DNA from: Pyropia yezoensis
Taxonomy: Eukaryota; Rhodophyta; Bangiophyceae; Bangiales; Bangiaceae
Assembly: GCA_009829735.1 (NCBI GenBank)
Contig: CM020619.1
Location: forward strand, 31,641,751-31,705,750
DNA length: 64,000 nt
Direction of reading: 5' to 3'
Translations under genes and position numbers: made by a program
Notes under the pieces: generated by a model
Told to the model about the DNA's origin: nothing
Databases searched by the model: none
Seen by the model: the letters and a program-made list of their open reading frames with translations, nothing else
In this document: positions 1,437-62,801 of the stretch, piece after piece
Layout: every line of letters starts with the position of its first letter
How positions within the stretch are numbered: the first letter of the stretch is position 1

Positions 1437-1577
1437 GGGGGGGGGGGGCAGAATCGGGGCAGGTGATCGTGACCGGGGTGAAGACGCTCGACCTCGGCAC
1501 CGGTGTGGACGTGCTCGAGGCTGTGCACGGTGGCACCTGGTTCGGCCCGAGGACGTGCCGGACTAGGGAGGGAGCTA

Positions 1578-8692: not shown

Positions 8693-8696
8693 TATT

Positions 8697-16875: not shown

Positions 16876-16879
16876 AATA

Positions 16880-17662: not shown

Positions 17663-18233
17663 TGTAGCATCCCTGGCCCCGACTTGGCGCCGACCCGGGA
17701 CTGCAACCAGAGGGCACCAGGTGCCAGTACACGCCCGCCGTGTGGTGATGGTTGGCGGTCGTGGCCCGTGCCCGGCACTGGGATGCGGTGGACTACGCTA
17801 TCCACACGCGAGAGAGGGATTTCTGATGTGTTTTTGCATACTTGTGAGGGACTTGATTTGAGAGAAATTGAGTGTGAGATTAGTGAGTGGGAATAGAATT
17901 AGTAGTGATAGTGGCCCCCGACCTGACGAGGTTAGACTCGGGTCGGGGCCACTCGGGGTTATGGGGGGGCTACCTGGCCAACGTGCCGAGGCTCCCCCAG
18001 ATGCACGTTAAGAGGGACAGCGAGGCGCCCTTGGCCCGCGCCCTCAGGAAAAAGACAACTGCGCGTTTGCTTTCCTCTTCCCCGTGTGCACTACCGTGCG
18101 TATCTGTTTGCTCTGCGAGCAGGCACGTGAGGCAACAGGCATACCATTCTCGTAGTTCCCCTTTCTGTGTTACCTGTCCCTTTCCCCCGAGGGATATTGA
18201 CACGTGTCTGAGAGGATCGAGTTTTATACCACA
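17663..18233 (+). repeat. 5' LTR of A2
   Basis: TGTAGCATCC to TATACCACA, 571 bp. The GC-rich hairpin is at 17911-17952. Confidence 0.96.
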
Positions 18234-18237
18234 TATT

Positions 18238-18254
18238 TGGTGGAGCAGCAGGGG
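18238..18254 (+). promoter_or_regulatory. Primer-binding site of A2
   Basis: TGGTGGAGCAGCAGGGG, 4 nt (TATT) after the LTR. A leader of about 190 nt follows before the gag ATG. Confidence 0.8.
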
Positions 18255-18444
18255 ATTGTGGAGTGTTTGGGAAGAGACATTTGGGAGCAGCGGTTGGGTT
18301 GTTCCTGTTCTGTCTTTTTCTGTGGTTTGGGAATTATTTGCACCCGTTCACGGGAATCCCATTCCTGGCTCTCCAACCCCTCTCTTGTGGTCTGGCGATC
18401 TTTGGACACGCAGGCAACTGGACTGTGGCTGTCAAGAGACCAAC

Positions 18445-20205
18445 ATGGCTACCCTTCCTGGCACGACGGTGCCCGAAGGGGTAGACCCCGCGTCCCTTGA
18501 CGCATCCCTGGTCACCGCGGGGGACGGTGCCCAACCCGGCGTTCTCCCTACGGGTGAAGCAGACCTGGGCGTGACATCTGGTAGCGGACTGGAGTCCACA
18601 GGCGGCCAAGCACCACCTGCTCCCGTTCCTCCGGCTGTTCCTCCTGTGGGAGCCACCCCGGGGTCAACGGCGTTTGAGTCCGCTCGCAGCAGACGTCTCC
18701 CTCCTGTCGGTTCTACTCCTCAACCTCCAGGGATAGCCCCTGGTGTGTTTACTCCTGGACCCACACATGGCAGTTGGGTGTATACACCTCTTCCTGTGGG
18801 CACTGGCGATGCCAGAGGCACCGTTGTGACTGGTTCTACGGGTCTCCCTGAGACCTCGACTCCTGGGACCGGCCAAGCTTTTCCTCCCCTTGCATCCTAT
18901 GGGGCGGGGAGCTCCAAGACCGGTAACCGGAGCAGCCGAAGGCGTCGGCGTCATCGCCGTCGCTCTAGCACCAGCGAGACCAGTTCCTCCAGCTCTGAGG
19001 GGGGATATGATTGGGATGCATCTCCCGGTCCCACCCGGCGCAGGCTAGTCGAGTTTGACTTCCCTGCCCACCAAGTGGGAGATGCCACCCTGAACAAGGT
19101 CACGTATTGGGGTAACTACCGGCTGGAGAACCAAGACCAAGGTTACACCCGGAAGATGGCCAAGAAGATGGCGTCCCTGAACCGGCGAATGCAGCCGAGC
19201 TTCGGGGGACATCCTAAGTTTTCCGGGAAGAGACCGGCGCTTATCTTTGCCTTCCTGCGCCGGTTTGTCAAGGCATGCAATGACAACGATGTGTCCGAGG
19301 GCAAGGCTCTCTACCTCCTGGTTAACTTCATGACCGGAGAAGCGGAACAGCGGTTTGCACAGGTTCTACCAGACTCTGCCGGACACATTGTCGGACGTAC
19401 CGTCGCGAGTTATCCGGAGGCGGTCAACTGGCTCCTGTCCAACTACGCTGACGCGGACTCTCTGCGTAAAGCAGTCGGCAGGCTGAACCGGGCAACCATG
19501 GAAAGACAAGAGACTCCAGAGGCGTTCGCCCGTCGTGTCCGGGAAATGAGCGATGCTTGTGGCAACGTTTACCCCGAGGACAGGCTCAAGATGATCTTCT
19601 CGGAAGGGCTTCCTGAATATCTTCAAGTGGATGCGGAGAACTACAACCAGGAACATCAAGAACATACCTTCCAGCAGTTGATGGCCTACACCCAGGGCAA
19701 GCACCGGCAAGCCAGGGCCCTCCAAGCTCCCATGGTATCAACCCCCAAGCCGTTGTCGCGAGTTCGACCCGGACCCGACAAGTATAAGGGAGGTGATAGC
19801 CCTGTACCGGTACTCGCAGTTGGCGAGGCCTCACCCATGGGGTCAGGGGACAAGTGGGGCGGCTTCGTTTCTAAGGAGCAACCATCCCTGGTCGCCCCCA
19901 AGCAAGTCAAGAACCAGCGGTTTCGGTCTTGCTGGCTGTGCCAGAAGGAGGATCACATGTCCTACCAGTGCCCGACCATTCCCAAGGACCTCCAGGAGAA
20001 ACTCAAGCGTCAAGGACTGGTGTTTGCAAAGGCGGTCAACTGGGCTGACCGGTGGGCACCCTCCAAGATGGACAAGGCACAGGTACATGCAATCCGAGTG
20101 GCAACCTTACAGAGCATCACGGAGGCTCTGGCAAGGGAAGCTCCTACGGACTTCGACCTGGAGACCGAAACCTCTAAGGACTCCTCGGACCCGGGAAACG
20201 AGTAG
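18445..20205 (+). CDS. gag: Gag of element A2
   Basis: Intact 586-aa Gag, same start (MATLPGTTV) and domain order as A1: Pro/Thr-rich N-terminus, Arg-rich patch near residue 180, Ser-rich stretch, capsid-like region, CX2CX4HX4C knuckle near residue 505, end DPGNE-stop. It should assemble the intracellular particle that packages element RNA. The knuckle marks the nucleocapsid part, the basic patch could aid nucleic-acid binding or nuclear entry (inference). No protease motif lies in this frame; that is supplied from pol after frameshifting. Confidence 0.96.
   Translation: MATLPGTTVPEGVDPASLDASLVTAGDGAQPGVLPTGEADLGVTSGSGLESTGGQAPPAPVPPAVPPVGATPGSTAFESARSRRLPPVGSTPQPPGIAPGVFTPGPTHGSWVYTPLPVGTGDARGTVVTGSTGLPETSTPGTGQAFPPLASYGAGSSKTGNRSSRRRRRHRRRSSTSETSSSSSEGGYDWDASPGPTRRRLVEFDFPAHQVGDATLNKVTYWGNYRLENQDQGYTRKMAKKMASLNRRMQPSFGGHPKFSGKRPALIFAFLRRFVKACNDNDVSEGKALYLLVNFMTGEAEQRFAQVLPDSAGHIVGRTVASYPEAVNWLLSNYADADSLRKAVGRLNRATMERQETPEAFARRVREMSDACGNVYPEDRLKMIFSEGLPEYLQVDAENYNQEHQEHTFQQLMAYTQGKHRQARALQAPMVSTPKPLSRVRPGPDKYKGGDSPVPVLAVGEASPMGSGDKWGGFVSKEQPSLVAPKQVKNQRFRSCWLCQKEDHMSYQCPTIPKDLQEKLKRQGLVFAKAVNWADRWAPSKMDKAQVHAIRVATLQSITEALAREAPTDFDLETETSKDSSDPGNE
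20193..20199 (+). promoter_or_regulatory. Putative -1 frameshift heptamer, A2 gag/pol
   Basis: G GGA AAC in gag frame, followed by GAG TAG (stop 20203-20205), with pol open in the -1 frame. Confidence 0.8.
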
Positions 20206-23200
20206 GGCAGGCGCTCTCCCCAAGTGTCTTCCCGAATCTCCGACGGCAGGGTACTTCTACCTGTTCTCCCCTTGCGTGCCGGGAGAAAGGACGGCGGTTA
20301 CCTGCTCAACCGGTAGCCGCCTGGACACCCTGTGTGTTCAAGGGGACATTGCTCGTCCTGCGTAAAGAAAACCTCAAGATTAATGCTCGTATGCGTGTGG
20401 GGGATAGCCTCCCCCAAGCTGTTACGCCGGTGGTTGACACGGGAGCCGGACCAAGCGTCATCACTGAGAACCTGTTACCTCCGGGCTGGCGTCGACATGC
20501 CTGGAGAGCGCCTACCCGGACCCATATCGTCGACGCTTCGGGTCAAACCCTACGACCGCTTGGCCGTCTTCCTGTCGCCATCTATGTCAACAATGAACCA
20601 ATGCTTTTTCCCTTTCTGGTAGTCAAGACCCTATCAGTCCCCCTCATCCTAGGCTGGGACTTCCAGAAGCAGCATGTCAAGAGCATCCTACCCGGAGAAG
20701 GGAAGGTCCAGTTCAACCATGGGTTTGTGTCACCGGTATTGGAGCATCTGGACGCCAAGGTTCGTGTAGCCAAGGGCAAGAGGGAACGCATCCCACCCTC
20801 TACCTTGACTCTCTTCAAACCGGTGCTCCTACCCCCTCGCTCGGAGACCAAGGTTCAAGTAACGACCCGGATTGCAGGTCAATGCCTGATCTACGGACGT
20901 AAGGAATTTCTGGCGAAACACCGGTTATACTTGGCCCACGGACATCACAAGAAGGTAGAAAGGCACACCCCGTTCTCGGTGCTAATCGTCAACGTGAGCC
21001 GGAAGCCAATAACCCTCGCCAAGGGCACCCGAGTTGGTACAGCGGAGCCTTACCGGGGGTCCGCCCGTGCTATGAGCAAGGAAGACCTCCTGAACCTGCA
21101 ACAAGAGCTGGCATCCAACTTGACGGCCTTAGACGTACCTCCGAAACAAGAGCAGGCTGGCTGCGCTACTCCGAAGCCCGAACAAGCACAACCCGGGATG
21201 CCAAAAGTCAAACAAGAAAATGTCCCTCCCGACTTGAAGGAGGCACTGGAGAAGCTTCTCCAGGAATATCTGCACCTGTGGTCGGGAGAGCTGGGCAAGA
21301 TGGACGCCACTCTACACCGGATTCAACTCAAGCCGGAAGCTAAGCCAGTGCACATGCAACCATATCGGGCCGGACCTCATCGCCGGGATGAGATTGAGAA
21401 GCAGGTTAACAAGATGCTCAAGATGGATGTTATCGAGCCGTCTGATGGCGAGTGGGCTTTCCCGGTGGTAGTTGTCCCGAAAACCGGCGGTCACTTCCGT
21501 TTCTGCGTTGACTACCGGCGCCTGAACGAGATGACAGTCAAGGACGTATACCCGATACCCCGGATGGATGATTGCCTCGACTTTCTTGGTGATGCCACCC
21601 TCTTCTCGACGCTGGATTGTAATGCCGGTTACTGGCAGATCCCTCTGGCTGACGAGGACAAGGACAAGACCACCTTCACGTGCCACCTGGGACTATTCCG
21701 GTGCAAGCGTCTTCCTTTTGGTCTCACCAATGCTCCGGCAACCTTCCAAAGAGCCATCGACATCATCCTGTCCGGGCTGAGGTGGAGAACATGTTTGGTC
21801 TACCTGGACGACATTATCGTTTTCTCCAAGACCCCAGCGGAACACCTGGAGCACCTTCGGGAGGTCCTGGCCCTCCTGTCCAAGGCTGGAGTTACCCTCA
21901 AGGCCGAGAAGTGCCACCTGTTTGAGACTGAGGTGGAGTATCTGGGGCACGTGCTGAGTCCGGGGGAGCTCCGAGTCAATGAGAAGAACATCAAGGCCCT
22001 CCGGCATGCACGGCAACCCAAAACCCAGACGGAACTCAAGAGCTTCCTGGGTATGTGCAACGTCTATCGCCGGTTCGTACGGGACTATGCTCTGATTGCC
22101 CGGCCACTGACCAAGCTGACCAGCAAGAAGCTTCCCGCACAACTCCCGGTGTTCGACGAGAAGCAGACGGCGGCCTTCGAAGAGCTCAAGAAGCGCCTGA
22201 CCACTACTCCAGTACTGGCGTTACCCAAGCGGGAGGGCCAGTTTGTTCTGGAGACGGATGCCTGTGGCGTCCAGGTGGGGTGCTCACTACTCCAGCAGCA
22301 ACCTGATGGGCACTTTCTCCCGATAGGCTACTACAGTCGCGTCTTGACTCCAGCTGAGAAGAACTATTCCACGACCGAGCGCGAGTGCTTGGCAGTCGTC
22401 TGGGCTTGCTTCCTGTTACGGCCATATCTTGAAGCACAAGAGTTCCTCATCCGGACGGACCACGCCAGCCTAAGGTGGCTGCTATGTATGGACATCAGTC
22501 AAGGAAGGGTAGCCCGGTGGCGCCTACGCCTTTCGGAGTTCAAGTACAAGGTGTGCACCAGAGCACGGAGGGAGCACCACTGCGCCGACACCATGTCCCG
22601 GCTGGAGACTCCTGCAGCCGATACCGGTCCTATCCCGGAGGAAATACCTTGCTTCATCCTCCCGAATGTCGGACGTGGCTGGCACGCTCCCCTGTATGAG
22701 ACACCTGAGGCTCATCAACCGGTGACCATTCACCGGATGCTGGAGGCACAACTGACGGATCCTCAATGCTTGGAGCTTCGCCACCAAATGGACCTGACCG
22801 GAACAGTCGTTTCTCCGAGTCTACAGATGGACTTCTGGTACGGGTGTCACCCTTTGATGGGGCAACTCAAGTCTACGTACCCCGGGGCCTACGAGCTGAC
22901 ATCCTACGCCTGGAGCACTCGTCTCCCCAGGCCGGACATCCTGGTATCAATCGGATGTATGCTTCCATGAGACGACACTATTACTGGGAAACCATGGCCA
23001 GTGACGTCCATAAGTACCTGGAGGCTTGCGTTTCGTGTGCAAGGAACCGGTTGTCCCAGAGGAAGAAGACTTCTAAGCTACGCCTACTCCCTGCGGCGGA
23101 GCCCTTTGCAAGCTTGAGCATGGACATCCTGGGGCCCCTACCTGAAACATCCAGTGGCAACCTATACCTGCTCATCATATGTGACCGGTTCTCCAAGTTC

Positions 23201-24292
23201 ACTCGAGCAATCCCGCTGAGGACCATCACGGCTCTGGATGTTACGTCAGCCTTCTGCGAGTACTGGATAGCTGCCTACGGTCCTCCAGACTCCGTCTTGA
23301 CCGACAACGGTCCCCAGTTTGCATCCCTGTTCTTCCAAGGAGTCTGTGACCTGATGGGCATCAAGAACTTGTACACTACGACGTATCACCCTCAAACGAA
23401 CGGCCAGGTGGAACGATTCAACCGGACCCTAGTAGACATGCTACGGCACTACGTGGAGGAGCACCAAGAAGACTGGGACGAGCTCCTGGCTGTCCTCACT
23501 CTAGCCTACAACTCCCGAGTTCACCGGACAACGGGGGTCGCTCCACTCGACTTTGTCACCCCAAGGCGGCTGACCAACTTCTCCCTGGAAAGAATACCAG
23601 ACGGTCTCCAGCCTGCACTGAAGTCAGGTCCCAAGGCAAAGGATGAGTTCCTGGAACAACTGAAGCTCCTGCTCCCAAGAGTCAAGGAGTCAATCTCGAA
23701 GACCCAGGAGCGCTACAAGCGGGACTATGACAAGGGCGTTCGGGAAAAGAACAAGGAACTGGGTGGTGGCGACTGGGTTTTTGTGGACAACCATAGCAAG
23801 ACCCGGGGGAAGCTGGACTCGAAGACGGATGGACCTTCTGAGATCCTGAATACGGACGGTTGGACGTTTCTTCTAGACGTGGATGGCTCCCCGTACCGCG
23901 TGAGCAGCGACCATGTCACCCGAGCTCCACCGCCAAGCCAACGGGACTTGACCCGGCGCAAGCGGGCCGCAGTACCCTGGCTATCCCAAGAAGAAGGTCG
24001 GGAATATGTCTACGTCAAGTTTGTGGACCATGCCTGGAGAGACGGACGCTTGTACCTGCGAGTACGCTGGTTCGGTTTTAACCCGGCAGATGATACATGG
24101 GAACCCTCAAACCGGCTACCCATCGCGGATGTCTGTGCCTACACGCGACGGAACGGGATAGAGGGCACTCCAGTGGCCAGAGCCGGCAAGATTCTGGAGT
24201 CGGACTCGGAGGAGGACCAAGAGGATGGGGCCAACCAAGACCCTCGGGACGAGCCGAGTTCATCCGCAACGGATGCGGAACAAGAGGATTGA
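20199..24292 (+). CDS. pol: Pol of element A2 (one frameshift before integrase)
   Basis: About 1,364 aa if the single frame break is ignored. Counting from the GTG at 20334: protease DTGAG at 35-39, RT FCVDYRRLN near 390 and YLDD near 490, RNase H (VLETDACG, TERECLAVVW). The linker breaks at 22795-22800, where GACCTGACC replaces GACCTGAACC of A'. After that come the HHCC finger (HSSPQAGHPG, CVSC), the DDE integrase core (SMDILGP, LTDNGPQF, NGQVERFN) and a chromodomain (about 24000-24130: YVKFVDHAW, LRVRWFGF, DDTWEP). The end is acidic and Ser-rich. The upstream frame stops at 22970. A1 has the same missing A, so this is probably a real mutation of the locus. No ATG opens the gene; frameshifting from gag is expected. 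Confidence 0.93.
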
Positions 24293-24437
24293 GAAGAAGG
24301 GAACGGGTATATCAAGGAGAACACGCAATACAAGCATGGAACAATCAAGGAAAACAAGCACCCGCTCGGGCAACCCTTCTCTCCGCCTCTTCCCTCCTCG
24401 CTTCTCCCAAGACCCTCACCCTCCTTGCCTCCAACTA

Positions 24438-26555
24438 CTACTCCCGGCGCGGACGCTGAGCCGCGGGAGTGTCCTCCAGCGCTGCCTCCGCGGCACGACG
24501 GGAACCGGAGGAAGACGGGATGACGTAGTGCGGTGGACGCGGTGCATCCCGGTATGACGCCATCGGAGTAGTACCGGTAGTTGCCGGGGGCTCCCGCTCA
24601 TCCAGATATGCCCGTCGGCGCCCCTGGAAGCCAGTGAAGGTTTCGGACCACTGCTGGGCCAAGCCATGCCGCGTCAAGGTCGCCAGAAGTTCGCCAACCA
24701 CCGGGCTGTTCGACATCTGGCCGCTGTCCGCGCAAGCAAACACCCGGTCAACCACGTTGTTCAAGACGCTGGCGTAAGTGCCCAGCACCAGGGAAGACCC
24801 GACGCCCTCAACCTGCACCGGAAGACGACCCAGCTGGTCTTCAATCATACCGACGTCGTACTGGTCGCATGTCGGACCACCTTGGATCAGGTACCAGTCA
24901 GGCACCCGGAAGCGGGTAAGGCGCAGAGTCGGCGCCGGAATCTCGAACCGCCCCGAGGATGACACCACCGGACGGTCCACAACAGCCCCCGAAACCGGAG
25001 TACCTAACTCCAGCGGAGGCACAGCGCCGCCGGCGTTGGAAGAAGGCGTCCGAGGCGGAGCGGCCGGAGTGGTAGGCGACCGCACGGTCACCCCCAGACT
25101 CGCCGCAGACAGGCGCGGTGCCGGAGGAGCTTGAAGTACCGGCACAGCCGGAACAAGGCGTGAACGCGCCGGCGACGGTTCAGGCGAGGCCACCGGGGCG
25201 ACAGGTGCAACAGGAGGAAGCGGAGCCGCCGCAGACGCCTGACCGACCGCCGCGGCCCATCCCGACTCCTGCACCGGCGGCCCAACTGGCAAAAGATCAA
25301 GGGCAGCCGGGGCAGGAAAGCTACCTAGCTGCGGCCACGCCGGAAGCGGCGTCGCCAGCTGCACCTTGGCCGGAGAATACTGGTAGACCACCTGCGCCCA
25401 ACCGAAGCCATCCCGACGCGGGCGGTTCTGGTCGGCAATCGCGTTCAAGAAGTTCCGGTCATGCACCGGCACTAGACGCCGGAAGTCAATCATCGCCTGG
25501 AAGAGCCCCTTATACTCCTCGTCCTGGCTGCACAGGAAGTCGACGGTCAACTTGTCGACAATCCAGACCATCAGGAGGTCGGGGAGAAACCAAAGCCGGT
25601 TGGACACCAGGACCTCGTGAAGCCAGTGGTTGGCCGCCAAGACTGTCATCTCGGACGTGTACATCATGTACGGGATTGAGTGGAAGAAGCCCTTGATCGA
25701 CGCCTGGGTCAAGGCGTCCAAGAAGTACCAGGTGAAGGGGATGCTAGAAGGAGCAAACCCGACCGGGATCTCGACTTCCTGCTGCTGCGGGATGACCTTG
25801 GGGTAGTACGCCGCCCGGTTAGCCTTGTCCAGCTTCCAGAACTCTTGGTGGTTGCAGCTCACGAGGAAGTCACGCTGACGTCCGCGTCGCTCACCCTGCT
25901 CCCGTGCCGGCGACAACTTGGAGTACTTCCGGGTCAGGAAGGGCGGCTCCAGAGCGACCATACTCGGACGGGGATCGCAGTTCAGGCTCCCCGACCCCTT
26001 GAGCGCCTCGTCCCAGACCTTGAGTGCCCGGTGGACGTACCCTTCCTCCTCCGGCCACCGGAGAACGGACGCGGACACGCGACGCTCGGTCAAAGGTAGA
26101 TCCAGCACCAGCGCGAAGGGGAGATCCTCCAGACGAGCAACCCAAGAGGAACCCGAGAAGCTCTGGGAGCGGTCTTGTGCCAGGCGCATCTGGTCCGCCG
26201 TGTGAAGACGAGCCTTATCCATCTCGGTCAAGACCCCGCGCTGGAGTTCCTTGCGCCAGAGGTCCAAGCAATCCTGCTGGCACTGGGCCGCGCAGGCGTT
26301 GCCGACCACCGTGGAGTAACGCCGGGCCGCCAGGGGGTCCTGCCCAAGAAGCATCTCCGGGAGACCCACCGGGGGGGTCTCGACCGGGTGCAACGCAGAA
26401 GCCGGGGGAACCCGATCCGTCTCCGCCGTAGCAGCCGGCGCCGGCACCGACACCCGAGGAACCGGAGGCAGGAGAAGGGCGCGACTACCCGAGTTCTCCT
26501 CCGCATTGCTCGCCGCCGGAACCACGGGCCCAGCTTGAATCTCGGAACTGGACAT
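24438..26555 (-). CDS. Antisense ORF (aORF) of A2, 705 aa, unknown function
   Basis: Long gene on the strand opposite to gag-pol, between pol and the 3' LTR; its stop is 145 bp from the pol stop and its ATG is 189 bp from the LTR. The N-terminal 60 residues are Pro/Ala-rich. A probably folded region spans about 70-390, with YYPK at 250-253, VEIPVGF at 261-267, HWLHEV at 310-315 and LWFLP at 321-325. A Pro/Ala/Ser-rich linker follows, then a C-terminal block (VLGTYASVLN to RHGLAQQWS) and a basic tail. I see no signal peptide, zinc motif or known catalytic motif, so it is not an obvious envelope. The C family protein shares the central motifs and the D fragment shares the C-terminal block. Transcription from the 3' LTR region is an inference. 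Confidence 0.85.
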   Translation of the reverse strand: MSSSEIQAGPVVPAASNAEENSGSRALLLPPVPRVSVPAPAATAETDRVPPASALHPVETPPVGLPEMLLGQDPLAARRYSTVVGNACAAQCQQDCLDLWRKELQRGVLTEMDKARLHTADQMRLAQDRSQSFSGSSWVARLEDLPFALVLDLPLTERRVSASVLRWPEEEGYVHRALKVWDEALKGSGSLNCDPRPSMVALEPPFLTRKYSKLSPAREQGERRGRQRDFLVSCNHQEFWKLDKANRAAYYPKVIPQQQEVEIPVGFAPSSIPFTWYFLDALTQASIKGFFHSIPYMMYTSEMTVLAANHWLHEVLVSNRLWFLPDLLMVWIVDKLTVDFLCSQDEEYKGLFQAMIDFRRLVPVHDRNFLNAIADQNRPRRDGFGWAQVVYQYSPAKVQLATPLPAWPQLGSFPAPAALDLLPVGPPVQESGWAAAVGQASAAAPLPPVAPVAPVASPEPSPARSRLVPAVPVLQAPPAPRLSAASLGVTVRSPTTPAAPPRTPSSNAGGAVPPLELGTPVSGAVVDRPVVSSSGRFEIPAPTLRLTRFRVPDWYLIQGGPTCDQYDVGMIEDQLGRLPVQVEGVGSSLVLGTYASVLNNVVDRVFACADSGQMSNSPVVGELLATLTRHGLAQQWSETFTGFQGRRRAYLDEREPPATTGTTPMASYRDAPRPPHYVIPSSSGSRRAAEAALEDTPAAQRPRRE

Positions 26556-26731
26556 GACGTCTAGGCTCCGGGGGGGGGAACGAGAGGGCCAAGGTGAAGG
26601 AGAAAGGGGAGGGGGCAGAACCGGAGCAGGTGATCGTGACCAGGGGGAAGACGCTCGACCTCGGCACCGGTGTGGACGTGCTCGAGGCTGTGCACGGTGG
26701 CACCTGGTTCGGCCCGAGGACGTGCCGGACT

Positions 26732-26741
26732 AGGGAGGGAG
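26732..26741 (+). promoter_or_regulatory. Polypurine tract of A2
   Basis: AGGGAGGGAG, three bases before the 3' LTR. It is the likely plus-strand primer and is conserved in A0 (1565-1574). Confidence 0.7.
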
Positions 26742-26744
26742 CTA

Positions 26745-27315
26745 TGTAGCATCCCTGGCCCCGACTTGGCGCCGACCCGGGACTGCAACCAGAGGGCACC
26801 AGGTGCCAGTACACGCCCGCCGTGTGGTGATGGTTGGCGGTCGTGGCCCGTGCCCGGCACTGGGATGCGGTGGACTACGCTATCCACACGCGAGAGAGGG
26901 ATTTCTGATGTGTTTTTGCATACTTGTGAGGGACTTGATTTGAGAGAAATTGAGTGTGAGATTAGTGAGTGGGAATAGAATTAGTAGTGATAGTGGCCCC
27001 CGACCTGACGAGGTTAGACTCGGGTCGGGGCCACTCGGGGTTATGGGGGGGCTACCTGGCCAACGTGCCGAGGCTCCCCCAGATGCACGTTAAGAGGGAC
27101 AGCGAGGCGCCCTTGGCCCGCGCCCTCAGGAAAAAGACAACTGCGCGTTTGCTTTCCTCTTCCCCGTGTGCACTACCGTGCGTATCTGTTTGCTCTGCGA
27201 GCAGGCACGTGAGGCAACAGGCATACCATTCTCGTAGTTCCCCTTTCTGTGTTACCTGTCCCTTTCCCCCGAGGGATATTGACACGTGTCTGAGAGGATC
27301 GAGTTTTATACCACA
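26745..27315 (+). repeat. 3' LTR of A2
   Basis: 571 bp, no difference seen from the 5' LTR. Hairpin at 26993-27034. It is followed by the target duplication GAGGG (27316-27320). Confidence 0.96.
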
Positions 27316-27895: not shown

Positions 27896-29782
27896 ATGGC
27901 AGACGAGGTTGCCCCAGTGGTGGGCGGTGGTGAGGCGGAGGCATCGCTTGATGAATGTGCGGGGGCCGCACGGCCGGTGGTGGGCTGGTATCGGAGCCCA
28001 AGGGCGACCTATATGTTTGACGGTGTCGGGTTCGTGGCGGACCCGCCGTTGATGGAGGCGGCGCGGACCAATCGGTCATTGGCTCTACAGCGTATCCGCG
28101 ACGCGCGGTGGGCGTCGTTGCCCAACTTCCGGGACGCGTCAATCGACGGGCGGTTCTACGAGGGCGAGTCCGTGTCGGACGTCCATGGTCATGCTGACTT
28201 TGGTCGTCAAGGGCCGGAACGGCAGGCGTACGAGGTGTTGTCGTTGTCCAACGAGTTGCTGCGGTACGGGGCGGCTGGTGGTCTTCACCCTTATCATCGG
28301 CGTCTGTACGCTTGGGCGCTTGCCTTTCGTGTCGGGCAAGTTGAGACCTTTGTGGTCGCGGCCAACAACTTCGGCCGTCTTCGCCGGCTGTGGCCTTCGG
28401 CCGTGTTCTTGGCACGTGACTTGGCCGAGCGGCTTGATGTGCCTATCGCGGAGGACCATGGGCTAGAGGAGTATCTGGCCATGTTGGCTGACAAGGTTGC
28501 CCATGGGGTGCGTCCGGCGGGCGTCGAATTTGGTCCTGCGACCTGTTCGCTTCCTAACCCGTTCCGGGATCCGACGACGTCGATTCGTCTTCGTAGGTCG
28601 TGGGACCTGGCGGCCTTTGAGCGTCGCGGCCATTTGGCGCCGGCTTGGGCGTCCAGCCTGGGGCGCGCACGCCCGTTCTTCGACCTGAAGCGTTGGCTTC
28701 CATCACGCCCATCGTGGTGGGTTGAGTACGGACCGTACATGGAGACGCCGGCGGCATTGTCGTACGTCGCCAGTGGGCTTAAGGACGCAGATAACGCGGC
28801 TTGGGGCGTCGTGTACGACGAGTTTTTCTGCTTTGCCTTGGCGGCTTGGGTGCATTGGCTCGTCCATGACGGACTTTTTTGCTGGTTGCCGGACCAAGTG
28901 ACCGAGTGGTTCGACGGGTTGGACGTGTCGCGGCTGGCCGATGGGCCCGGGGGTGAGGAGCGTCTTGCGACGTACCACCGTATGCGTGATGCACACGCCG
29001 TCTTCCCGTGGACAACCATTGTCGCCGACGTCCGCCGACGTGATGAGCGCACCAAGGCGGCTCGCCAGGTGTACGTCAAGTTGGACGCGACGGCCAAGTA
29101 TGGCTTCGTTCTTCGTCAGCCGTGCGGCGCGTTTGATTGGAAGTATGACGCCTCGTGGGAGGGTGGTGACGAGTCGTCCGGACCGGGTCGTGGTCCTGGT
29201 CGTGGTCGTGAGACCGGTCGTCGGGTGCGGGACGCGTCTCGGTCGTTGTCGCCGGTGGCCGGTGCGGGGTCAAGTGACCGTGTTAACCCTAGTGTGGTTG
29301 CCCCTGTGTCCGGTGGGACCGGTGGCACGGAGCCGATCTGGCCGTCGGAGTGGGCCCGTGTGGGTGCTGTTGCCCTGTTGGGTACTGACTGGGTGGGTGC
29401 CTTGGCTGGGCAAGTGGTGCCTCGTGGCGCAACGGCTGGGGCGTTGGCCATTGCTTGGTCTCGTCAGACCGTGGAGATTGATGACGTTCTTCGTCGGGTC
29501 AGTGGGATGACTGAGTCGGAGGCCGTTGAGGCTTTGGTGTTGACGGTCTCCCGTTTGGCGGATCCGTCTCGCATTCGCGATAGCTTCCTCAGTGAGCTGC
29601 GTCGTGCGCCCTCGGTGGAGGCTCGGGCTGCGAGTCCTCGTCGTGTTGACGTTGGTGCCATTCTTGGCGTTCGTCGTCGACAGATGTCGGATGACGAGGA
29701 GGAGGATGCGCCTCGTGCGCCGGCTCGGCGTGTGCGCTCGCGCAGTTCGTCTTTTGACGAGGGCTCGCGACGTCGCCGTTGA
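27896..29782 (+). CDS. Antisense ORF (aORF) of B1, about 628 aa, unknown function
   Basis: Opposite strand to B pol and convergent with it; the stops are 41 bp apart. I chose the ATG at 27896 (MADEVAPVV) because the open frame upstream is the GC-rich repeat. Features: a mostly uninterrupted folded-looking region to about residue 430, with HWLVHDGLFCWLP at 320-332, which resembles the HWLHEV-LWFLP stretch of the A2 antisense protein; then a Gly/Arg/Ser linker; then a C-terminal tail that is first acidic (SDDEEEDAP) and then Arg/Ser-rich. No known catalytic or membrane motif. Position and layout match the A and C antisense genes; sequence similarity is weak and needs a profile comparison. Confidence 0.78.
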   Translation: MADEVAPVVGGGEAEASLDECAGAARPVVGWYRSPRATYMFDGVGFVADPPLMEAARTNRSLALQRIRDARWASLPNFRDASIDGRFYEGESVSDVHGHADFGRQGPERQAYEVLSLSNELLRYGAAGGLHPYHRRLYAWALAFRVGQVETFVVAANNFGRLRRLWPSAVFLARDLAERLDVPIAEDHGLEEYLAMLADKVAHGVRPAGVEFGPATCSLPNPFRDPTTSIRLRRSWDLAAFERRGHLAPAWASSLGRARPFFDLKRWLPSRPSWWVEYGPYMETPAALSYVASGLKDADNAAWGVVYDEFFCFALAAWVHWLVHDGLFCWLPDQVTEWFDGLDVSRLADGPGGEERLATYHRMRDAHAVFPWTTIVADVRRRDERTKAARQVYVKLDATAKYGFVLRQPCGAFDWKYDASWEGGDESSGPGRGPGRGRETGRRVRDASRSLSPVAGAGSSDRVNPSVVAPVSGGTGGTEPIWPSEWARVGAVALLGTDWVGALAGQVVPRGATAGALAIAWSRQTVEIDDVLRRVSGMTESEAVEALVLTVSRLADPSRIRDSFLSELRRAPSVEARAASPRRVDVGAILGVRRRQMSDDEEEDAPRAPARRVRSRSSSFDEGSRRRR

Positions 29783-29823
29783 GGGGGGGGTTGGGAGGTG
29801 AGGGTGTTGCCGTACGGCTTGTG

Positions 29824-32800
29824 TTAGTCTTGTTTGTACTTGTGTTGGCCCTTTGGCTTGTTGTTTGTTTGTTCGTGTTTGAACATGAAGGCAGCCCTGG
29901 CCCATTCTGTTGTCTTTTTGTCCGATGTTAGGACTGGCCGGAGTATCTTCGACTCATGACAGAGCCGTTTGGCTTTTGAGAACCATGAGGCATGTTCCCA
30001 GCGTGGGGTGACCAGGAGGGTGTCCTTTGGACTGGATTGTAGCTCTGTGACCACTTGGTCAAGGGTGTGGGTGGGGGGTACCCTTAGGCAGATGCCTTGT
30101 GAGTTCTGCTCCGAGGCAGTGACATGCCTCTCCGGCTGGTAGCTCAACTGGCCATAGTGCTTGGTGAGTTCTAGGAGTTCCCAGAGTGGTCCCCATGTGG
30201 GGGAGGTGAAGTTCCGGCATGCCTCTGGCAGTGTTGACTTCATGTAGTACACAGGGATGTTTTCCTGGACCGAGCGGTCTGCGTTGTCCCATTGGACATT
30301 AGCCTGTACCACCCCCCATGGGTCGACGTAGACCGCGAGTATGTGTGGTTGCCAAATAGCGGCGGTTGCGCCAGTGAGCGCAACAAGTCCAGTTGCCAGG
30401 GCAACCTTGGTGGTTGGCTTTCGTGGCTTCCGCCACGTGTATCCAGGTATTTCTACCTTTTTGGATCGCAAATGTCGAATGACAAGGTTACGTGGCAAGT
30501 TTTCCACTGGTTCCCACGTGTCGTCTTTGGGGGTATAATCATACCATCGGACTTTGAATTCGTACGAATCTCCAGACCGTCGGTGAGACATGAGTTTTTC
30601 GATGACGTATTCGTCGTGGACGGTTGGCTCCGGCCGTGGTTTGTCAAACCCATCGAGTAGTGGGTGTGGTGTGGACTCATTGGAGTTGTCCGGCCGGGGT
30701 GCCGCAGTGGCATAATCGCTGTTGATGCGTTTCTCGATACCATCGACGTCAATGACGAAGGTAGAGTCGTCGGCGTCGACGACCATGAATGGCCCGACGG
30801 CCTTGCTCTGCAGCTTGTTCGCTCGTTGATGGTTTGTCGTATAGACATAGTCGCCGATCTTGATCTTACGATTGCGCGTCCCAACGTGGGCATCGAAGTT
30901 ACGTTTGTAACGTTGTTGAGTCTTGGCGAGGGCCTTGATGACGGCCGGGATCTGCAGCCGCAGTCGGGCCATGAACTCGCGCTTTCTCGCGAGCGGCGAT
31001 CCGTCATTGAGGGTCCTTTTTTGGGATATGGACGTGCCTGGTGGCAAGTTACGAACCGACAGGTTAGGGACACGTCGTGGGATGACAAGCTCGAATGGCG
31101 CTAGTCCAGTGGACCGATGTGGTTGGCTGTTGTAAGCCATAGTCAGGACGGGCAGAAGCTCGTCCCAGCGCTTGGGGTCCTCGGTCACGTAGTGACGCAG
31201 TTGTGTAGCAATCGTACGATTGTACCGTTCGACTTGACCGTTGGTCTGTGGGTGGTACGCGGTGGTGCGCACCGTCTCGACTCCGAGTACCTTCATCACG
31301 GCGATGAAAAAGTTTGACATGAACTGGGGTCCTTGGTCGGACAAGATCTTGTCCGGTGGGCCATAGCAGGCTATCCAGTGTTCAATAACAGCGGATGAGA
31401 CGGAGATGGCCGTGATGGTCTTGAGTGCGATGCACTTTGTAAGCTTTGCAAAGCGGTCCGTAATGACCAAGATGAATCGATTTCCGCTTTTGCTTGCTGG
31501 CAAGGGGCCGAGGATGTCGATCGACAGTTCTGTCAGTGGTTCTGACGCCGGGAACAGGGTCAGAGGCGTCGTATGCTTACGCAACGCTAGCCGGTTCTGT
31601 GCACAAGTGGTGCAATTGGTGATGCTCTTGTGGATATCCGATATCATGGATGGCAAGTAGAACTTTGTTCTCATAGTGAAGTACATCTTGTTCATGCCCG
31701 GGTGGGCGGCCGTGGTGGCCATGTGTTGGAGCTTCAAGATGACATCTTGTTGCGACTTGGGGATGACCAGTTGGTCTCCATACACAGTTTTGCGACGCAG
31801 TGCGTTGTTGTTGTCAAGGTAGAATGACTTGTGTCCTCCGCTGTTGACGCTGTCGATGATCGACTTGCAGAAGTCATCCGATTGTTGCTTGTTAATGACT
31901 TCATAGAAGTCAAGAGGCTTGGGGTCGGTTGTGCCTGTGTACCTGTCCGTTTGGACGCCGTGTGCCGTCTGGGCCACCGCTAGACATGGTATGTCATCGT
32001 TGATCGTTTCGTTCATCGCGTTATTGTCCGCGCGGGACAGGAAGTCGGGCAGGTGGTGACTAGCACCTGGCTTGTATTTCAGTTCGAAGTCGAACTCTGC
32101 GAGACGCATACGCCATCTCATCAACCGACCGCTAGAGTCGGCAGTGCTGTATATCCATCTAAGGCTTTGATGGTCCGATCGGATTATGAAGTGTTGTCCT
32201 TCTAGGAAGTGCCTCAACTTGAGGACAGCCCACACAATGCCAAGGCATTCTCGCTCCGTTGTGGAGTAGTTGAGCTCCGCTGCGTTGAGAGCGCGGCTCC
32301 AGTAGCCGAGTGGCTGTGGTTTTCCATCGTCGTCCGTTTGGAGTAACGTGCAGCCGAGTTGATACGCACTTGCGTCGACATCGAGCGTTAGCTCACGCCC
32401 AGCCTTAGGCAAGGCCAAGATTGGTGGGTGCACCAAGGCGTCACGGAGGTCCTCAAAGGACGCCAACTCCTCGGTCGAGGGTGGGGACAGGTCCGGTGGG
32501 ACGTCTTTCTTGGTCAACGCGTTTAGCGGTCGGGCTCTCTTGGTAAAGTCTACCACGAACCGTCGATAGACGTTGCACATGCCGAGAAAACTCTTGAGTT
32601 GGGTCTTGGTCTTGGGGAACGTTGCTTGACGCAGGGCGTCGGTGTTCTTGTTAAGAACGTGGAGTTTACCAGGCGTTATGCTGTGGCCGAGGTACTCCAC
32701 CTCGTTGGAAAACCACTTGCACTTCTCAAGATTGAGAGTCACGCCGGCCTCCCGTAGTCGGGTAAGGACCTTGTCTACATCATGGATGTGTTGTTTGGCG

Positions 32801-34296
32801 GTTGCCGAGAAGATGATGACGTCGTCTAAGTAGACGAGGCAGACTTGCCACTTGAGTCCGGAGAGTATAATATCCAGGGCACGTTGAAACGTCGCCGGGG
32901 CATTGGTCAAGCCGAATGGCATCGTTGTCCAGTCGAAGATGCCATAGTGCGTTGTGAAGGCCGTTTTTTCTTGGTCCTCCTGCCGCAATGGCACTTGCCA
33001 GTACCCAGCGGTACAGTCGAGAGAGGTGAATACTTTGGCGTCTCCGAGGGAGTCGAGACAGTCCTCCATACGCGGGAGGGGGTACGCATCCTTCTTAGTG
33101 ATGCTGTTCAACCGTCGATAATCGACACAAAACCGGGCCTTCCCATTTTTCTTCGGTACGATGACGACCGGACTGGCCCAGTCACTGTGACTTGGTTTAA
33201 TAACCTTGAGCTTCAACATCTTGTTGATTTGATCGACGATGATCGCCCGTTTGAACGCACCGGTTCGATAGGGCTGCGCCCTTATCGGGGCAACCCCCGG
33301 TGGGGTGACGATGGCGTGCTCTGTGGCGTGTATGACCCCGAGGGTCCCGTCCCACATCTTGCCATGCTTGGCCAACATCGACTTAATTTGCGCGTGCAAA
33401 TGTTGGGGAGCCCCGTCGAGGTTGATGTCGTCAAGTGACGGTTTGGGCTGTTCGGTCTCTGGGTCGGTTGACCCCGTATCCTCCGTCGGGGCGGCGAGGA
33501 CTTGCCCGAGGTGGGGCTCGGCAAACGCGAGGACGCAGCCCTTTCGCAGGATGGCCGTGTCTGGCCCGAAGTTGCATACCTTAACCATAAATGGTTCGTC
33601 AGGTTTGATGGTGGCGAGTCCGCGGGCGACTGCCATGGTCTTGTGTCGGCACAATCGTGCGTTTGGTTGAAGAGTAACCAGTCCCGGCGTGTCACATCTG
33701 ACCATAATCCATTCCTCGGTCTTGCCCTTGAGGCGCGTTTGTTTGCAGGCACGGACCTTGGTCGACCCCCCGGCCCATTGGGGCTCCATGACGTCGTCTT
33801 GACGGATGCTCAGGATTGGGGAGTGGCCGATCGAATGGTTTTCAGCACCTTGCCAAACGATACGTTTGCGGGCGGGCAGGATTGCCTCGATGTGCTTATC
33901 GATGAACTCGGTCCCGAGTATGCACTTGACCGACAGGTTGGGCGTAACGTAAAAACGTTCAAAGGCTTGAACCCCTCCGGTGTCGATGAACAAGTGGATG
34001 GCTTGGAGAGCCTTGATTGTTTGCCCGTTGGCATCAACAATGTGCGGTGCACTGGTTAACGTGTCGGCGTAGTCGCGCCAATGTGGCGGTAGAACATCCG
34101 GCCGGATGAGGTTGACGCCAGCTCCGGTATCGAGGATGGGTCTCATACTCCGCGTGTTCGCGAGCTCCGTGCCTATACAGGCGGCGATTTCATAATGTCG
34201 ATGAGCTTTGCTCAGTATCTTGGTGACCTTAGGTCTATCTTGTCGGGCAGGCAAGGGTGCGTCGGGGAGACTGCCCGGTGGTCCTCGACTTACTCG
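29824..34296 (-). CDS. pol: Pol of element B1, intact, with extra C-terminal region
   Basis: Open for 1,476 aa from the ATG at 34254, and open further up to the gag frameshift site. Protease DTGAG at 42-46, RT FCVDYRRLN, YLDD at 475-478, RNase H, HHCC finger, integrase core (SIDILGP, LSDQGPQF, NGQVERYN), chromodomain (YVIEKLMSH, KVRWYDY, DDTWEP) ending near 1278. Then comes a roughly 198-residue extension not present in the other families. It starts with a hydrophobic segment (about 1284-1301, VALATGLVALTGATAAIW) and contains PRWEHASWF near 1418. This is the best preserved pol in the window. What the extension does is unknown; a membrane anchor or a Trp-rich nucleic-acid-modifying domain are only guesses. 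Confidence 0.95.
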   Translation of the reverse strand, partial: RVSRGPPGSLPDAPLPARQDRPKVTKILSKAHRHYEIAACIGTELANTRSMRPILDTGAGVNLIRPDVLPPHWRDYADTLTSAPHIVDANGQTIKALQAIHLFIDTGGVQAFERFYVTPNLSVKCILGTEFIDKHIEAILPARKRIVWQGAENHSIGHSPILSIRQDDVMEPQWAGGSTKVRACKQTRLKGKTEEWIMVRCDTPGLVTLQPNARLCRHKTMAVARGLATIKPDEPFMVKVCNFGPDTAILRKGCVLAFAEPHLGQVLAAPTEDTGSTDPETEQPKPSLDDINLDGAPQHLHAQIKSMLAKHGKMWDGTLGVIHATEHAIVTPPGVAPIRAQPYRTGAFKRAIIVDQINKMLKLKVIKPSHSDWASPVVIVPKKNGKARFCVDYRRLNSITKKDAYPLPRMEDCLDSLGDAKVFTSLDCTAGYWQVPLRQEDQEKTAFTTHYGIFDWTTMPFGLTNAPATFQRALDIILSGLKWQVCLVYLDDVIIFSATAKQHIHDVDKVLTRLREAGVTLNLEKCKWFSNEVEYLGHSITPGKLHVLNKNTDALRQATFPKTKTQLKSFLGMCNVYRRFVVDFTKRARPLNALTKKDVPPDLSPPSTEELASFEDLRDALVHPPILALPKAGRELTLDVDASAYQLGCTLLQTDDDGKPQPLGYWSRALNAAELNYSTTERECLGIVWAVLKLRHFLEGQHFIIRSDHQSLRWIYSTADSSGRLMRWRMRLAEFDFELKYKPGASHHLPDFLSRADNNAMNETINDDIPCLAVAQTAHGVQTDRYTGTTDPKPLDFYEVINKQQSDDFCKSIIDSVNSGGHKSFYLDNNNALRRKTVYGDQLVIPKSQQDVILKLQHMATTAAHPGMNKMYFTMRTKFYLPSMISDIHKSITNCTTCAQNRLALRKHTTPLTLFPASEPLTELSIDILGPLPASKSGNRFILVITDRFAKLTKCIALKTITAISVSSAVIEHWIACYGPPDKILSDQGPQFMSNFFIAVMKVLGVETVRTTAYHPQTNGQVERYNRTIATQLRHYVTEDPKRWDELLPVLTMAYNSQPHRSTGLAPFELVIPRRVPNLSVRNLPPGTSISQKRTLNDGSPLARKREFMARLRLQIPAVIKALAKTQQRYKRNFDAHVGTRNRKIKIGDYVYTTNHQRANKLQSKAVGPFMVVDADDSTFVIDVDGIEKRINSDYATAAPRPDNSNESTPHPLLDGFDKPRPEPTVHDEYVIEKLMSHRRSGDSYEFKVRWYDYTPKDDTWEPVENLPRNLVIRHLRSKKVEIPGYTWRKPRKPTTKVALATGLVALTGATAAIWQPHILAVYVDPWGVVQANVQWDNADRSVQENIPVYYMKSTLPEACRNFTSPTWGPLWELLELTKHYGQLSYQPERHVTASEQNSQGICLRVPPTHTLDQVVTELQSSPKDTLLVTPRWEHASWFSKAKRLCHESKILRPVLTSDKKTTEWARAAFMFKHEQTNNKPKGQHKYKQD

Positions 34297-35934: not shown

Positions 35935-35974
35935 GGGGGGGTTGGGAGGTGAGGGTGTTGCCGTACGGCTTGTG

Positions 35975-38900: not shown

Positions 38901-40447
38901 TCCCGTAGTCGGGTAAGGACCTTGTCTACATCATGGATGTGTTGTTTGGCGGTTGCCGAGAAGATGATGACGTCGTCTAAGTAGACGAGGCAGACTTGCC
39001 ACTTGAGTCCGGAGAGTATAATATCCAGGGCACGTTGAAACGTCGCCGGGGCATTGGTCAAGCCGAATGGCATCGTTGTCCAGTCGAAGATGCCATAGTG
39101 CGTTGTGAAGGCCGTTTTTTCTTGGTCCTCCTGCCGCAATGGCACTTGCCAGTACCCAGCGGTACAGTCGAGAGAGGTGAATACTTTGGCGTCTCCGAGG
39201 GAGTCGAGACAGTCCTCCATACGCGGGAGGGGGTACGCATCCTTCTTAGTGATGCTGTTCAACCGTCGATAATCGACACAAAACCGGGCCTTCCCATTTT
39301 TCTTCGGTACGATGACGACCGGACTGGCCCAGTCACTGTGACTTGGTTTAATAACCTTGAGCTTCAACATCTTGTTGATTTGATCGACGATGATCGCCCG
39401 TTTGAACGCACCGGTTCGATAGGGCTGCGCCCTTATCGGGGCAACCCCCGGTGGGGTGACGATGGCGTGCTCTGTGGCGTGTATGACCCCGAGGGTCCCG
39501 TCCCACATCTTGCCATGCTTGGCCAACATCGACTTAATTTGCGCGTGCAAATGTTGGGGAGCCCCGTCGAGGTTGATGTCGTCAAGTGACGGTTTGGGCT
39601 GTTCGGTCTCTGGGTCGGTTGACCCCGTATCCTCCGTCGGGGCGGCGAGGACTTGCCCGAGGTGGGGCTCGGCAAACGCGAGGACGCAGCCCTTTCGCAG
39701 GATGGCCGTGTCTGGCCCGAAGTTGCATACCTTAACCATAAATGGTTCGTCAGGTTTGATGGTGGCGAGTCCGCGGGCGACTGCCATGGTCTTGTGTCGG
39801 CACAATCGTGCGTTTGGTTGAAGAGTAACCAGTCCCGGCGTGTCACATCTGACCATAATCCATTCCTCGGTCTTGCCCTTGAGGCGCGTTTGTTTGCAGG
39901 CACGGACCTTGGTCGACCCCCCGGCCCATTGGGGCTCCATGACGTCGTCTTGACGGATGCTCAGGATTGGGGAGTGGCCGATCGAATGGTTTTCAGCACC
40001 TTGCCAAACGATACGTTTGCGGGCGGGCAGGATTGCCTCGATGTGCTTATCGATGAACTCGGTCCCGAGTATGCACTTGACCGACAGGTTGGGCGTAACG
40101 TAAAAACGTTCAAAGGCTTGAACCCCTCCGGTGTCGATGAACAAGTGGATGGCTTGGAGAGCCTTGATTGTTTGCCCGTTGGCATCAACAATGTGCGGTG
40201 CACTGGTTAACGTGTCGGCGTAGTCGCGCCAATGTGGCGGTAGAACATCCGGCCGGATGAGGTTGACGCCAGCTCCGGTATCGAGGATGGGTCTCATACT
40301 CCGCGTGTTCGCGAGCTCCGTGCCTATACAGGCGGCGATTTCATAATGTCGATGAGCTTTGCTCAGTATCTTGGTGACCTTAGGTCTATCTTGTCGGGCA
40401 GGCAAGGGTGCGTCGGGGAGACTGCCCGGTGGTCCTCGACTTACTCG
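35975..40447 (-). CDS. pol: Pol of element B2 (two indels near its 3' end)
   Basis: Same protein as B1 from protease to chromodomain, open from the frameshift site to about 36470. There, a C missing from the run in CACCCCCATGG breaks the frame inside the extra C-terminal region; an added T near 36023 is a second fault. Both are at runs of one base close to the contig start, so the gene is probably intact in reality. DTGAG, YLDD, the integrase DDE motifs and the chromodomain are all present. It overlaps gag at the slippery site as in B1. Confidence 0.92.
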
Positions 40448-42186: not shown

Positions 42187-42386
42187 ATCGCAACCCGGCG
42201 TACTTGCGTCGGCGCGCCCTGCGTCGCCAACCAAAAGGTCCTCGTGGCACGACGCCCGGCGTCGTCCAGCCTTCACTGATCGGTGATGTCGCCCTGCAAC
42301 ACCCGATCAAGAGATCGTCAACACAACTGCCACAAGGCACCAAGGAACACGTACGAGTGTACGGCAGCGCCGCACACGAGCAGTAT

Positions 42387-42404: not shown

Positions 42405-42811
42405 TGTGGAATATGTGTTACCCAATATAAAGGATATGGGACCGACCGGCGCCCGGAAGGCAAAGAGGAAGCTATTACCGTAGAGGCAAAGAAGACAGAC
42501 CTTTAGCTCCTGGACGTTCGATGGGGAGCAAGCCGGCCGAAGGCAGCGGCGAGTCCCCACGTCGCAGATAAGGGCGAAAACAATATGCCGGTCGAGCGAC
42601 CGAGCGGAGGCCGGACGGCCGATCGCTACGAGCATAGCAATCAATATAAAAGATCCCTCCAAGGCAAGGACAGATAAACAATACAAAACAAAAGTAGTCC
42701 CCCAAAGGGCGAGCCACAAGCGGACCCATGCCAACAAGGCTGGGGCCACCAGTCAGGGGGGCTACAAGCCAGTAAATACCGGAATTCGGTACAAGGGGCG
42801 GATATGCTACA
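42405..42811 (-). repeat. 5' LTR of B2 (407 bp)
   Basis: On the minus strand TGTAGCATATCC (from 42811) to CATATTCCACA (42405). The B remnants at 7901-8027 and 17450-17569 match its first 127 bp. It lies against a truncated D gene at 42812, so it marks the point where B entered D. Confidence 0.93.
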
Positions 42812-62788: not shown

Positions 62789-62801
62789 GAGGAGAGGGGA
62801 G
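62789..62801 (+). promoter_or_regulatory. Polypurine tract of C
   Basis: GAGGAGAGGGGAG directly before the 3' LTR. Confidence 0.78.

Follow-up and report, generated by a model that had tools for sequence, protein, structure and literature searches.

A gene convergent with gag-pol in a repeat-filled region

We examined a stretch of 64,000 nucleotides from the red alga Pyropia yezoensis (C2:31641751-31705750; hereafter the window), which is filled with repeats and belongs to an assembly of 107,475,971 bases in 11 contigs. Four families of long terminal repeat (LTR) retroelements of the Ty3/gypsy kind, here called A, B, C, and D, were recognized in it, and the gene described below lies on the strand opposite to gag-pol, between the integrase and the 3' LTR. 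It was noticed in A2, a full family A element whose 5' and 3' LTRs are identical at 571 of 571 positions. An earlier reading of the letters alone (the sequence-only reading) had proposed antisense open reading frames (ORFs) of roughly 650-700 codons in A2 and in the family C element, facing the pol stop across 145 and 111 bp. Both frames and both distances were confirmed: the A2 frame encodes 705 amino acids and the stops lie at 24292 and 24438, and the C frame encodes 647 amino acids from its ATG, or 704 if the open frame (60515-62629, minus strand) is counted from the first non-ATG start, with stops at 60403 and 60515. The A2 protein has a conserved core at approximately residues 200-400, proline/alanine-rich linkers, and a second region at approximately 575-665 in common with family D.

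The stop-free runs were compared with those of 300 Markov simulations each of order 1 and order 2. The A2 run of 763 codons exceeded the simulated maxima of 494 (order 1) and 599 (order 2), and the length of the A2 ORF is thus beyond chance expectation under both models; for C, the run was 724 codons and the maxima 665 and 379. The B run (726 codons) was longer than the order-1 maximum of 514 and fell just short of the order-2 maximum of 728, and its length alone is not significant. Codon-usage scoring preferred the gene frame in A2, in C, and in A0, a second, degraded A copy, and scored the opposite strand slightly better in B (-0.082 versus -0.088). No ORF of more than 192 codons was found on the opposite strand inside the A2 antisense gene.

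The antisense gene is shared by four element families

The A2 and C proteins had been said to share four motifs in the same order. YYPK (residue 250 in A, 263 in C), VE[IV]P.GF (261 and 274), and LW.LP (321 and 330) were found as described;.WL.EV (310 and 311) keeps its place in the order, but it is out of register, preceding LW.LP by 11 residues in A and by 19 in C. In blastp, the A protein aligned with the C protein over ~165 residues at 23% identity (43.5 bits); the Smith-Waterman score of the pair was 117 (z 10.2), and 300 shuffles averaged 48 and never exceeded 83. B and C gave 45.8 bits (z 10.5), and no direct pairwise similarity between A and B was detected in the shuffle test (z 0). 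The predicted A-C similarity also proved significant by profile search: a profile from B and C alone retrieved A0 (E 1.5e-7) and A2 (E 1.1e-6) as the best non-self matches among 928 six-frame pieces, and a profile of A and C retrieved B at E 0.0013.

The family D antisense gene is represented in the window by a remnant of 85 codons, which taken alone is only suggestive. Its similarity to A (z 4.8) was reached by 3 of 1000 shuffles, it showed no similarity to B and C, and with A as a single-sequence query it ranked (E 0.26) after a piece opposite gag (0.0068), which we regard as a chance match. Nine longer D genes, with open frames of 825-970 codons, were fetched from the genome, and all nine matched the C core in a blastp search of the fetched ORFs, with E values from 9e-9 to 3e-6 and a top score of 48.9 bits; because of these genes, D was accepted as a carrier. 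Open frames of 422, 454, and 576 codons also lie opposite the D antisense gene in the loci L047 (from 3001, minus strand), L057 (from 3197, minus), and L058 (from 1145, plus), perhaps as a by-product of codon bias.

As judged from these comparisons, all four families recognized in the window carry a homologous antisense gene of ~630-880 codons, downstream of the integrase and convergent with it. Identity in the core among A, B, and C is 21-25%, which resembles that of gag (21-28% among A, B, and D) and is below that of pol (40-53%). In this the gene resembles an old component of the elements that evolves quickly. Transduction of host genes is known in LTR elements (PMC7264820; papers named here by PMC number are cited from the available parts of their text), and one could envisage that a captured host gene, or else a duplicated gag domain, rides in these elements as a passenger. 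We consider this very improbable, though no search was aimed at a host homologue, given that the gene is present in all four families despite the distance between their pol regions and that its core has diverged to a gag-like degree; for a duplicated gag domain, a profile comparison with gag and pol gave a probability of 0.1.

Copies in the genome and conservation of position

The genome searches return the best-scored copies, so the counts are lower bounds biased to well-kept copies. At least 63 A copies were scored, 97-100% identical across the query length (two of them without one end residue), and 50 of the 63 had no internal stop. Among the matches listed for C, 68 of 68 copies were open and ~100% identical, and this near-identity suggests a recent burst. 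Family B gave at least 71 matches; the first 18 were full-length and 98-100% identical, 16 of them open, and further groups lay near 86%, 72%, and 55-64%, with one match at 41%, many being incomplete or interrupted by stops. With the 85-residue D query, at least 150 places were scored, 39 at 85% identity or more and 111 at 67-80%.

The integrase of the element's own family converged on the antisense gene in 57 of 59 fetched loci, or in 55 of 57 distinct places (L035 and L045 are one place, as are L038 and L046, and L001, L009, L021, and L033 are the window's own); no convergent integrase was detected in L054 and L057. Measured to the end of the matched integrase part, the distance to the gene was 266 bp in 8 of 8 A loci, 139 bp in 12 of 12 C loci, 665-818 bp in B, and 454-488 bp in D.

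The antisense protein is under purifying selection

The ratio of nonsynonymous to synonymous substitution rates (dN/dS) was determined for pairs of copies. A2 and A0 differ by 48 synonymous and 23 nonsynonymous changes in 478 codons, giving a ratio of 0.155 (bootstrap 0.09-0.254), and the codon-position bias of the pair is 15/11/43. The ratios between A2 and A3 were 0.227 for gag, 0.133 for pol, and 0.108 for the integrase. For the A2/A0 pair, the two remaining same-strand frames gave 1.18 and 2.42 and the three opposite-strand frames 1.23, 0.22, and 2.73; the low value of 0.22 probably arises because that frame shares third positions with the gene. In all 16 pairs between the A subgroups L001-L004 and L005-L008, the ratio was 0.110-0.180. 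For B versus the 86% group (B86) it was 0.144 and 0.153, for B or B86 versus the 72% group (B72) it was 0.20-0.22, and for the two D types described below (D' being represented by L047, L048, and L058) it was 0.32-0.35, with the L057 pair (0.43) excluded; the C copies were too alike for this analysis. In A, B, and D alike, the values between subgroups lie well under 1 and indicate that the protein itself is under purifying selection. The profile searches, the homologues in B and D, dN/dS, and the convergence with the integrase thus support the proposal of a gene older than the family split and maintained by selection.

These results bear on the possibility that it is the antisense transcript that matters and not the protein, convergent transcription yielding double-stranded RNA that tunes silencing and the frame being incidental. 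Such a role has been discussed for plant antisense ORFs (PMC7264820), and the convergent layout with its short gaps would agree with it; however, the dN/dS of 0.11-0.35, the codon-position bias, and the large share of open frames among the A and C copies scored already contradict it as the sole function, and we regard it as very improbable.

The D antisense gene has been exchanged as a cassette

The antisense genes of type D (L045, L046, L055, L059) and type D' (L047, L048) were only 73% identical in eight pairs, whereas in the same pairs identity was 89-92% over the 700 columns leading up to the start, 89-93% over the 450 columns past the stop, and 90-97% on the integrase side. When two pairs were followed in steps of 50 columns, identity dropped within ~150 bp before the start and had recovered by 100 bp past the stop. 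On the integrase side, L046 differs from L047 at 27 of 794 sites (L047 from L048 at 25 of 794), but in the gene it differs from L047 at 633 of 2345, and among L045-L048 the L046 gene is nearest to that of L045 (190 of 2531). The synonymous rate dS between L045 or L046 and L047 or L048 was 0.72-0.77 in the gene and 0.09-0.29 in the integrase, which argues that older gene versions were exchanged and not merely that the protein changed faster. The converse was seen with L045 and L059, where dS was 0.08 in the gene and 0.45 in the integrase over 109 codons.

On the basis of these distances and borders, and not of a formal recombination program, we conclude that D backbones have swapped the antisense gene whole, as a cassette. 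On the integrase side, the quartet counts were uninformative (1, 1, and 1 supporting sites). The claim leaves out L057 and L058, whose right flanks do not align (37-69%), and L056, whose left flank is 82-85% identical; the L057 gene is closer to type D (83-84% identity) than to L047 (72%).

The exchange suggests, in a bolder reading, that the specificity of the antisense protein matters. The protein could be a type-specific recognition factor that serves own-type control (copy number, exclusion of like elements) or escape from a host factor, with rare types favoured and cassettes swapped by template switching between co-packaged RNAs. The sharply bordered divergence of the gene between similar flanks, the mosaic of L046, and a dS in the gene that faster protein change alone could not produce are all in agreement with this possibility; yet the pattern was found in D only, a different action of the types is a supposition, the quartet counts are uninformative, and neutral recombination with an older sister family would give the same pattern. 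We therefore hold it to be unlikely. A broader version, in which a whole lineage of chromodomain elements is ambisense, each family having a dedicated antisense protein not recognized before, and in which this protein is a type-specific identity or immunity module exchanged between backbones in the manner of phage immunity regions, is possible, if doubtful; such a module would serve host evasion or exclusion of like elements.

Organization of the window

The features of the four families are collected in Table 1. The order protease, reverse transcriptase, RNase H, integrase was found in A and B, with the protease under the Pfam cut-off in both, and no protease scored in the C and D ORFs used. 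The chromodomain at the integrase C-terminus scored 36.9 bits in B, above the cut-off of 25.1, and below it in A and C (Table 1); D had no match at E 0.1. The name "chromovirus" comes from the sequence-only reading and is provisional for these elements, since only the B chromodomain passes the Pfam cut-off.

Table 1. Features of the window by element family (RT, reverse transcriptase; aa, amino acids).
Feature	Position	Strand	Remarks
A2 antisense gene	24438..26555	-	705 aa from ATG; inside complete LTR element, converges on pol
A2 5' LTR	17663..18233	+	TGTAGC...CCACA; followed by primer site common to B and D
A2 gag ORF	17887..20205	+	open frame begins within LTR; zinc-knuckle match below cut-off
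A2 protease/RT/RNase H ORF	20334..22970	+	protease just below Pfam cut-off
A2 integrase and chromodomain ORF	22766..24292	+	Chromo 21.3 bits, cut-off 25.1
A2 gap separating convergent stops	24293..24437	.	145 bp
A2 antisense leader, ATG to 3' LTR	26556..26744	-	189 bp
A2 3' LTR	26745..27315	+	antisense-strand TATAAA at 27310; 3' flank GAGGGG
A0 antisense gene (second A copy, degraded)	1..1443	-	one TAG, 1-nt insertion, 91-bp deletion across start
A0 LTR	1578..2021	+	differs from A2 at 9 of 442 positions
B antisense gene	27896..29782	+	628 aa from ATG; frame open from 27596; convergent with B pol
B protease (weak)/RT/RNase H/integrase/chromodomain ORF	29824..34254	-	contig 3; reading in overlapping contig 4, 36392-40405
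B gag ORF	40441..42276	-	
B 5' LTR	42405..42811	-	ends read from sequence; other copy starts in 17450-17569, separated by A insertions
C RT/RNase H/integrase/chromodomain ORF	57725..60403	+	Chromo 20.0 bits, cut-off 25.1
C antisense gene	60515..62458	-	647 aa from ATG at 62458
C leader and 3' LTR side	62459..63269	+	element end near 63269
D antisense gene remnant	42812..43069	+	last 85 codons and stop; cut by B insertion
D integrase, C-terminal part	43520..44428	-	
D RT/RNase H/integrase zinc-binding part	44447..47074	-	
D gag ORF	47469..49079	-	
D 5' LTR	49877..50238	-	found again, with primer site and leader, at 63269-63794
Gaps of 500 N between contigs (n = 4)	2022-2521, 14706-15205, 35131-35630, 54901-55400		

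Neighbouring contigs overlap without having been merged: 5648-14705 equals 15206-24247 at 99.68% over ~9.1 kb, and 29479-35128 equals 35631-41279 at 99.91% over ~5.6 kb. A detailed comparison of 1024 bases of the second overlap showed five single-base gaps and no substitutions. Because the contigs overlap and the checked part differs by single-base gaps only, the apparent tandem and inverted copies in the window are in part assembly redundancy, and each overlapping pair is probably one locus with sequencing errors rather than two separate copies. The B pol frame extends ~220 codons past the chromodomain in contig 3 (29824-30489) and is shorter in contig 4, and its true length is uncertain.

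As read from LTR ends and flanks, the elements are nested: B sits within the D antisense gene (42385-43520), and A2 was inserted upstream of the B antisense gene (17450-27610). Before the A2 5' LTR, contig 2 reads GGAGGG, which would give a 5-bp target duplication (GAGGG), and contig 3 has one G fewer. The primer-site core GGAGCAGCAGGGG adjoins the 5' LTR in families A, B, and D (window positions 18238, 8697, 42385, 49859, and 63410), and Rfam and tRNA scans of the window gave no match. An inverted repeat, GTGGCCCC...GGGGCCAC, lies within the A LTR at 26993-27034 and also from 1826, 8370, and 17911. The 3' end of C was placed near 63269 by an ungapped comparison of 11 loci, in which L014, L018, and L019 diverge from L013 ~800 bp from the ATG, after ...TTTTTGCCACA, a sequence present near 63269 in the window too; the other 8 of the 11 lose register earlier and carry no weight for this end. 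The repeat pair 49718-50241/63269-63794, readily mistaken for the C LTR, belongs instead to family D, whose minus-strand LTR, primer site, and leader it comprises. The right end of the window (63790-64000) is a GC-rich, imperfect triplet-like repeat (GCTGCC/GTCGCT).

Among plasmid records, A pol had three matches at 26-42% identity. NZ_CP087956.1, which is 5.3 kb long and listed as a Wolbachia plasmid, encodes a reverse transcriptase 42% identical to A pol and is possibly DNA of the insect host; two Bacillus licheniformis plasmid records match A pol at 26-29%.

Protein features and a possible nuclear role

Basic stretches resembling nuclear localization signals lie near the C-terminus of the B and C proteins. 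Structure prediction of the A and C cores, which the sequence-only reading had recommended, suggests a mainly helical core in poorly scored models that matched no fold, as detailed below. Within the LTRs, TATA[AT]A hexamers occur only on the antisense strand (one in A, two in B, one in D) and are a weak hint of an antisense promoter.

Transmembrane segments usually reach a hydropathy level of ~1.6. The top 19-residue values here, 1.54 in A, 1.44 in B, and 1.23 in C, fall within the core, and no clear transmembrane segment was found, although no dedicated predictor was run. This affects the possibility of an envelope-like or movement protein for cell exit, which is suggested by the location between pol and the 3' LTR, where env and env-like genes sit (PMC7264820). 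The hydropathy values, the antisense orientation, and the lack of a Pfam match all stand against such a protein, which we consider extremely improbable.

The basic stretches in B and C, the antisense TATA hexamers, the helical core, and the nuclear product of the maize element Grande (PMC7264820) lead us to favour a nuclear regulator. We think it probable that the accessory antisense gene is a standing part of a chromodomain-type Ty3/gypsy lineage comprising A-D, its product most likely being a nuclear regulator with its own antisense promoter. According to this model, the gene would be ancestral to the four families, and transcription from a promoter in or beside the 3' LTR would allow the product to be made apart from gag-pol without splicing. 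The protein, in which a mainly helical core is combined with proline-rich linkers and, in B and C, with basic stretches near the C-terminus, would work inside the nucleus and affect how its own element is transcribed, silenced, or handled as RNA; the D types would reflect selection for variants recognized differently by the host or by related elements. The more general proposal of the sequence-only reading, that the protein helps the element or manages its interaction with the host, is plausible, and the cassette exchange in D lends it indirect support.

Several observations weigh against the nuclear-regulator model. The antisense gene is known here from the DNA alone. Pfam gave no match at E 1 for the A, C, D, D', and B86 proteins, at 0.1 for B, or at 10 for the four core rows of A, A0, B, and C, and B72 had only a chance match to another Pfam family (0.23). 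Sequence searches of the PDB gave chance-level matches only; those to a cyclin, a defence reverse transcriptase, and interleukin-10 were dismissed. No relative of the antisense proteins was found in PHROGs or in virus and prokaryote contigs, and the virus contigs held no pol relative either; together with Pfam and the PDB these were the collections covered, none of them a database with eukaryotic relatives. The fold models of the A and C cores were poor (mean predicted local distance difference test scores of 41 and 47), and Foldseek found no significant match with them (best E 1.9 and 0.58 in the PDB and, with the C core only, 1.1 among viral structures). The nuclear role thus rests on basic stretches, and the pattern that detected them in B and C detected none in A. 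The TATA counts are weak, with chance values of 0.08 for the single hexamer in A and 0.05 for the two in B, and the D hexamer is a near-palindrome. Young pairs of copies often had a higher dN/dS of 0.4-0.8, as expected for copies after insertion, but pairs within A L005-L008 gave 0.10-0.22. No cassette border was seen between the A subgroups (dS 0.065-0.08 in the gene and 0.036-0.054 in the integrase), and in the B comparisons the divergence was spread across gene and flanks, with no cassette pattern found. Furthermore, the fetched loci are best matches, L045-L059 having been picked by hand mostly for long open frames, and they give no estimate of the share of intact copies.

Relation to known systems and significance

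In plants, the Tat/Retand elements, including Grande and RIRE2, carry antisense ORFs between pol and the 3' LTR in most copies, with function unknown (PMC7264820; PMC11963269), and the antisense product of maize Grande is nuclear and has its own promoter (PMC7264820). The A-D elements resemble them in having a convergent antisense gene at the same place. Retand elements, however, are described as non-chromoviruses, and their antisense ORFs mostly contain Transposase_28 (PF04195) (PMC7264820; PMC11963269); the antisense proteins described here have no match to PF04195, and a chromodomain above the cut-off is found in B. In the Boty-like elements of Botrytis, the antisense gene brtn lies between pol and the 3' LTR (cited in PMC7264820 and PMC8365987). 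These LTR elements outside plants are likened to A-D by description, not by sequence, and in the available parts of the papers we noticed no report of brtn being swapped as a cassette or occurring in several families of the same genome.

Retroviruses of the human T-cell leukaemia virus (HTLV) type have an antisense regulatory gene with a much smaller product and belong to a different virus family. Their antisense promoter is in the 3' LTR (PMC7264820), and the likeness, again by description, concerns the antisense gene and this promoter, the latter only proposed for the elements studied here. A model for the possible task of the antisense protein is CERV of the Caenorhabditis elegans element Cer1, an accessory nuclear protein needed for export of genomic RNA (PMC10309623); it is made from a spliced element mRNA, and this comparison is likewise one of description. 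The oomycete Chronos elements have a second, archaeal-type RNase H beside the first (PMC5348765); in Pfam searches our pol ORFs matched RT_RNaseH families only, and no separate RNase H family was found.

Convergent antisense genes are thus already known from plant Tat/Retand and fungal Boty elements, and what is new is the sharing of such a gene across chromodomain-type families, together with a protein not recognized before. In searches of the open-access literature, which leave subscription papers including the 2011 surveys outside, we noticed no paper listed on an antisense gene conserved across chromodomain families. The antisense genes of LTR elements have long been known while their function has stayed unsettled. 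In this one genome, the same gene can be traced through many copies in four families, its constraint has been measured, and a natural swap is available; the known range of such genes, which covered the Tat type of plants and the Boty elements, now extends to chromodomain-type families. Its function thereby becomes testable: the exchanged D types are ready-made comparisons, and the conserved core shows which part of the protein to assay.

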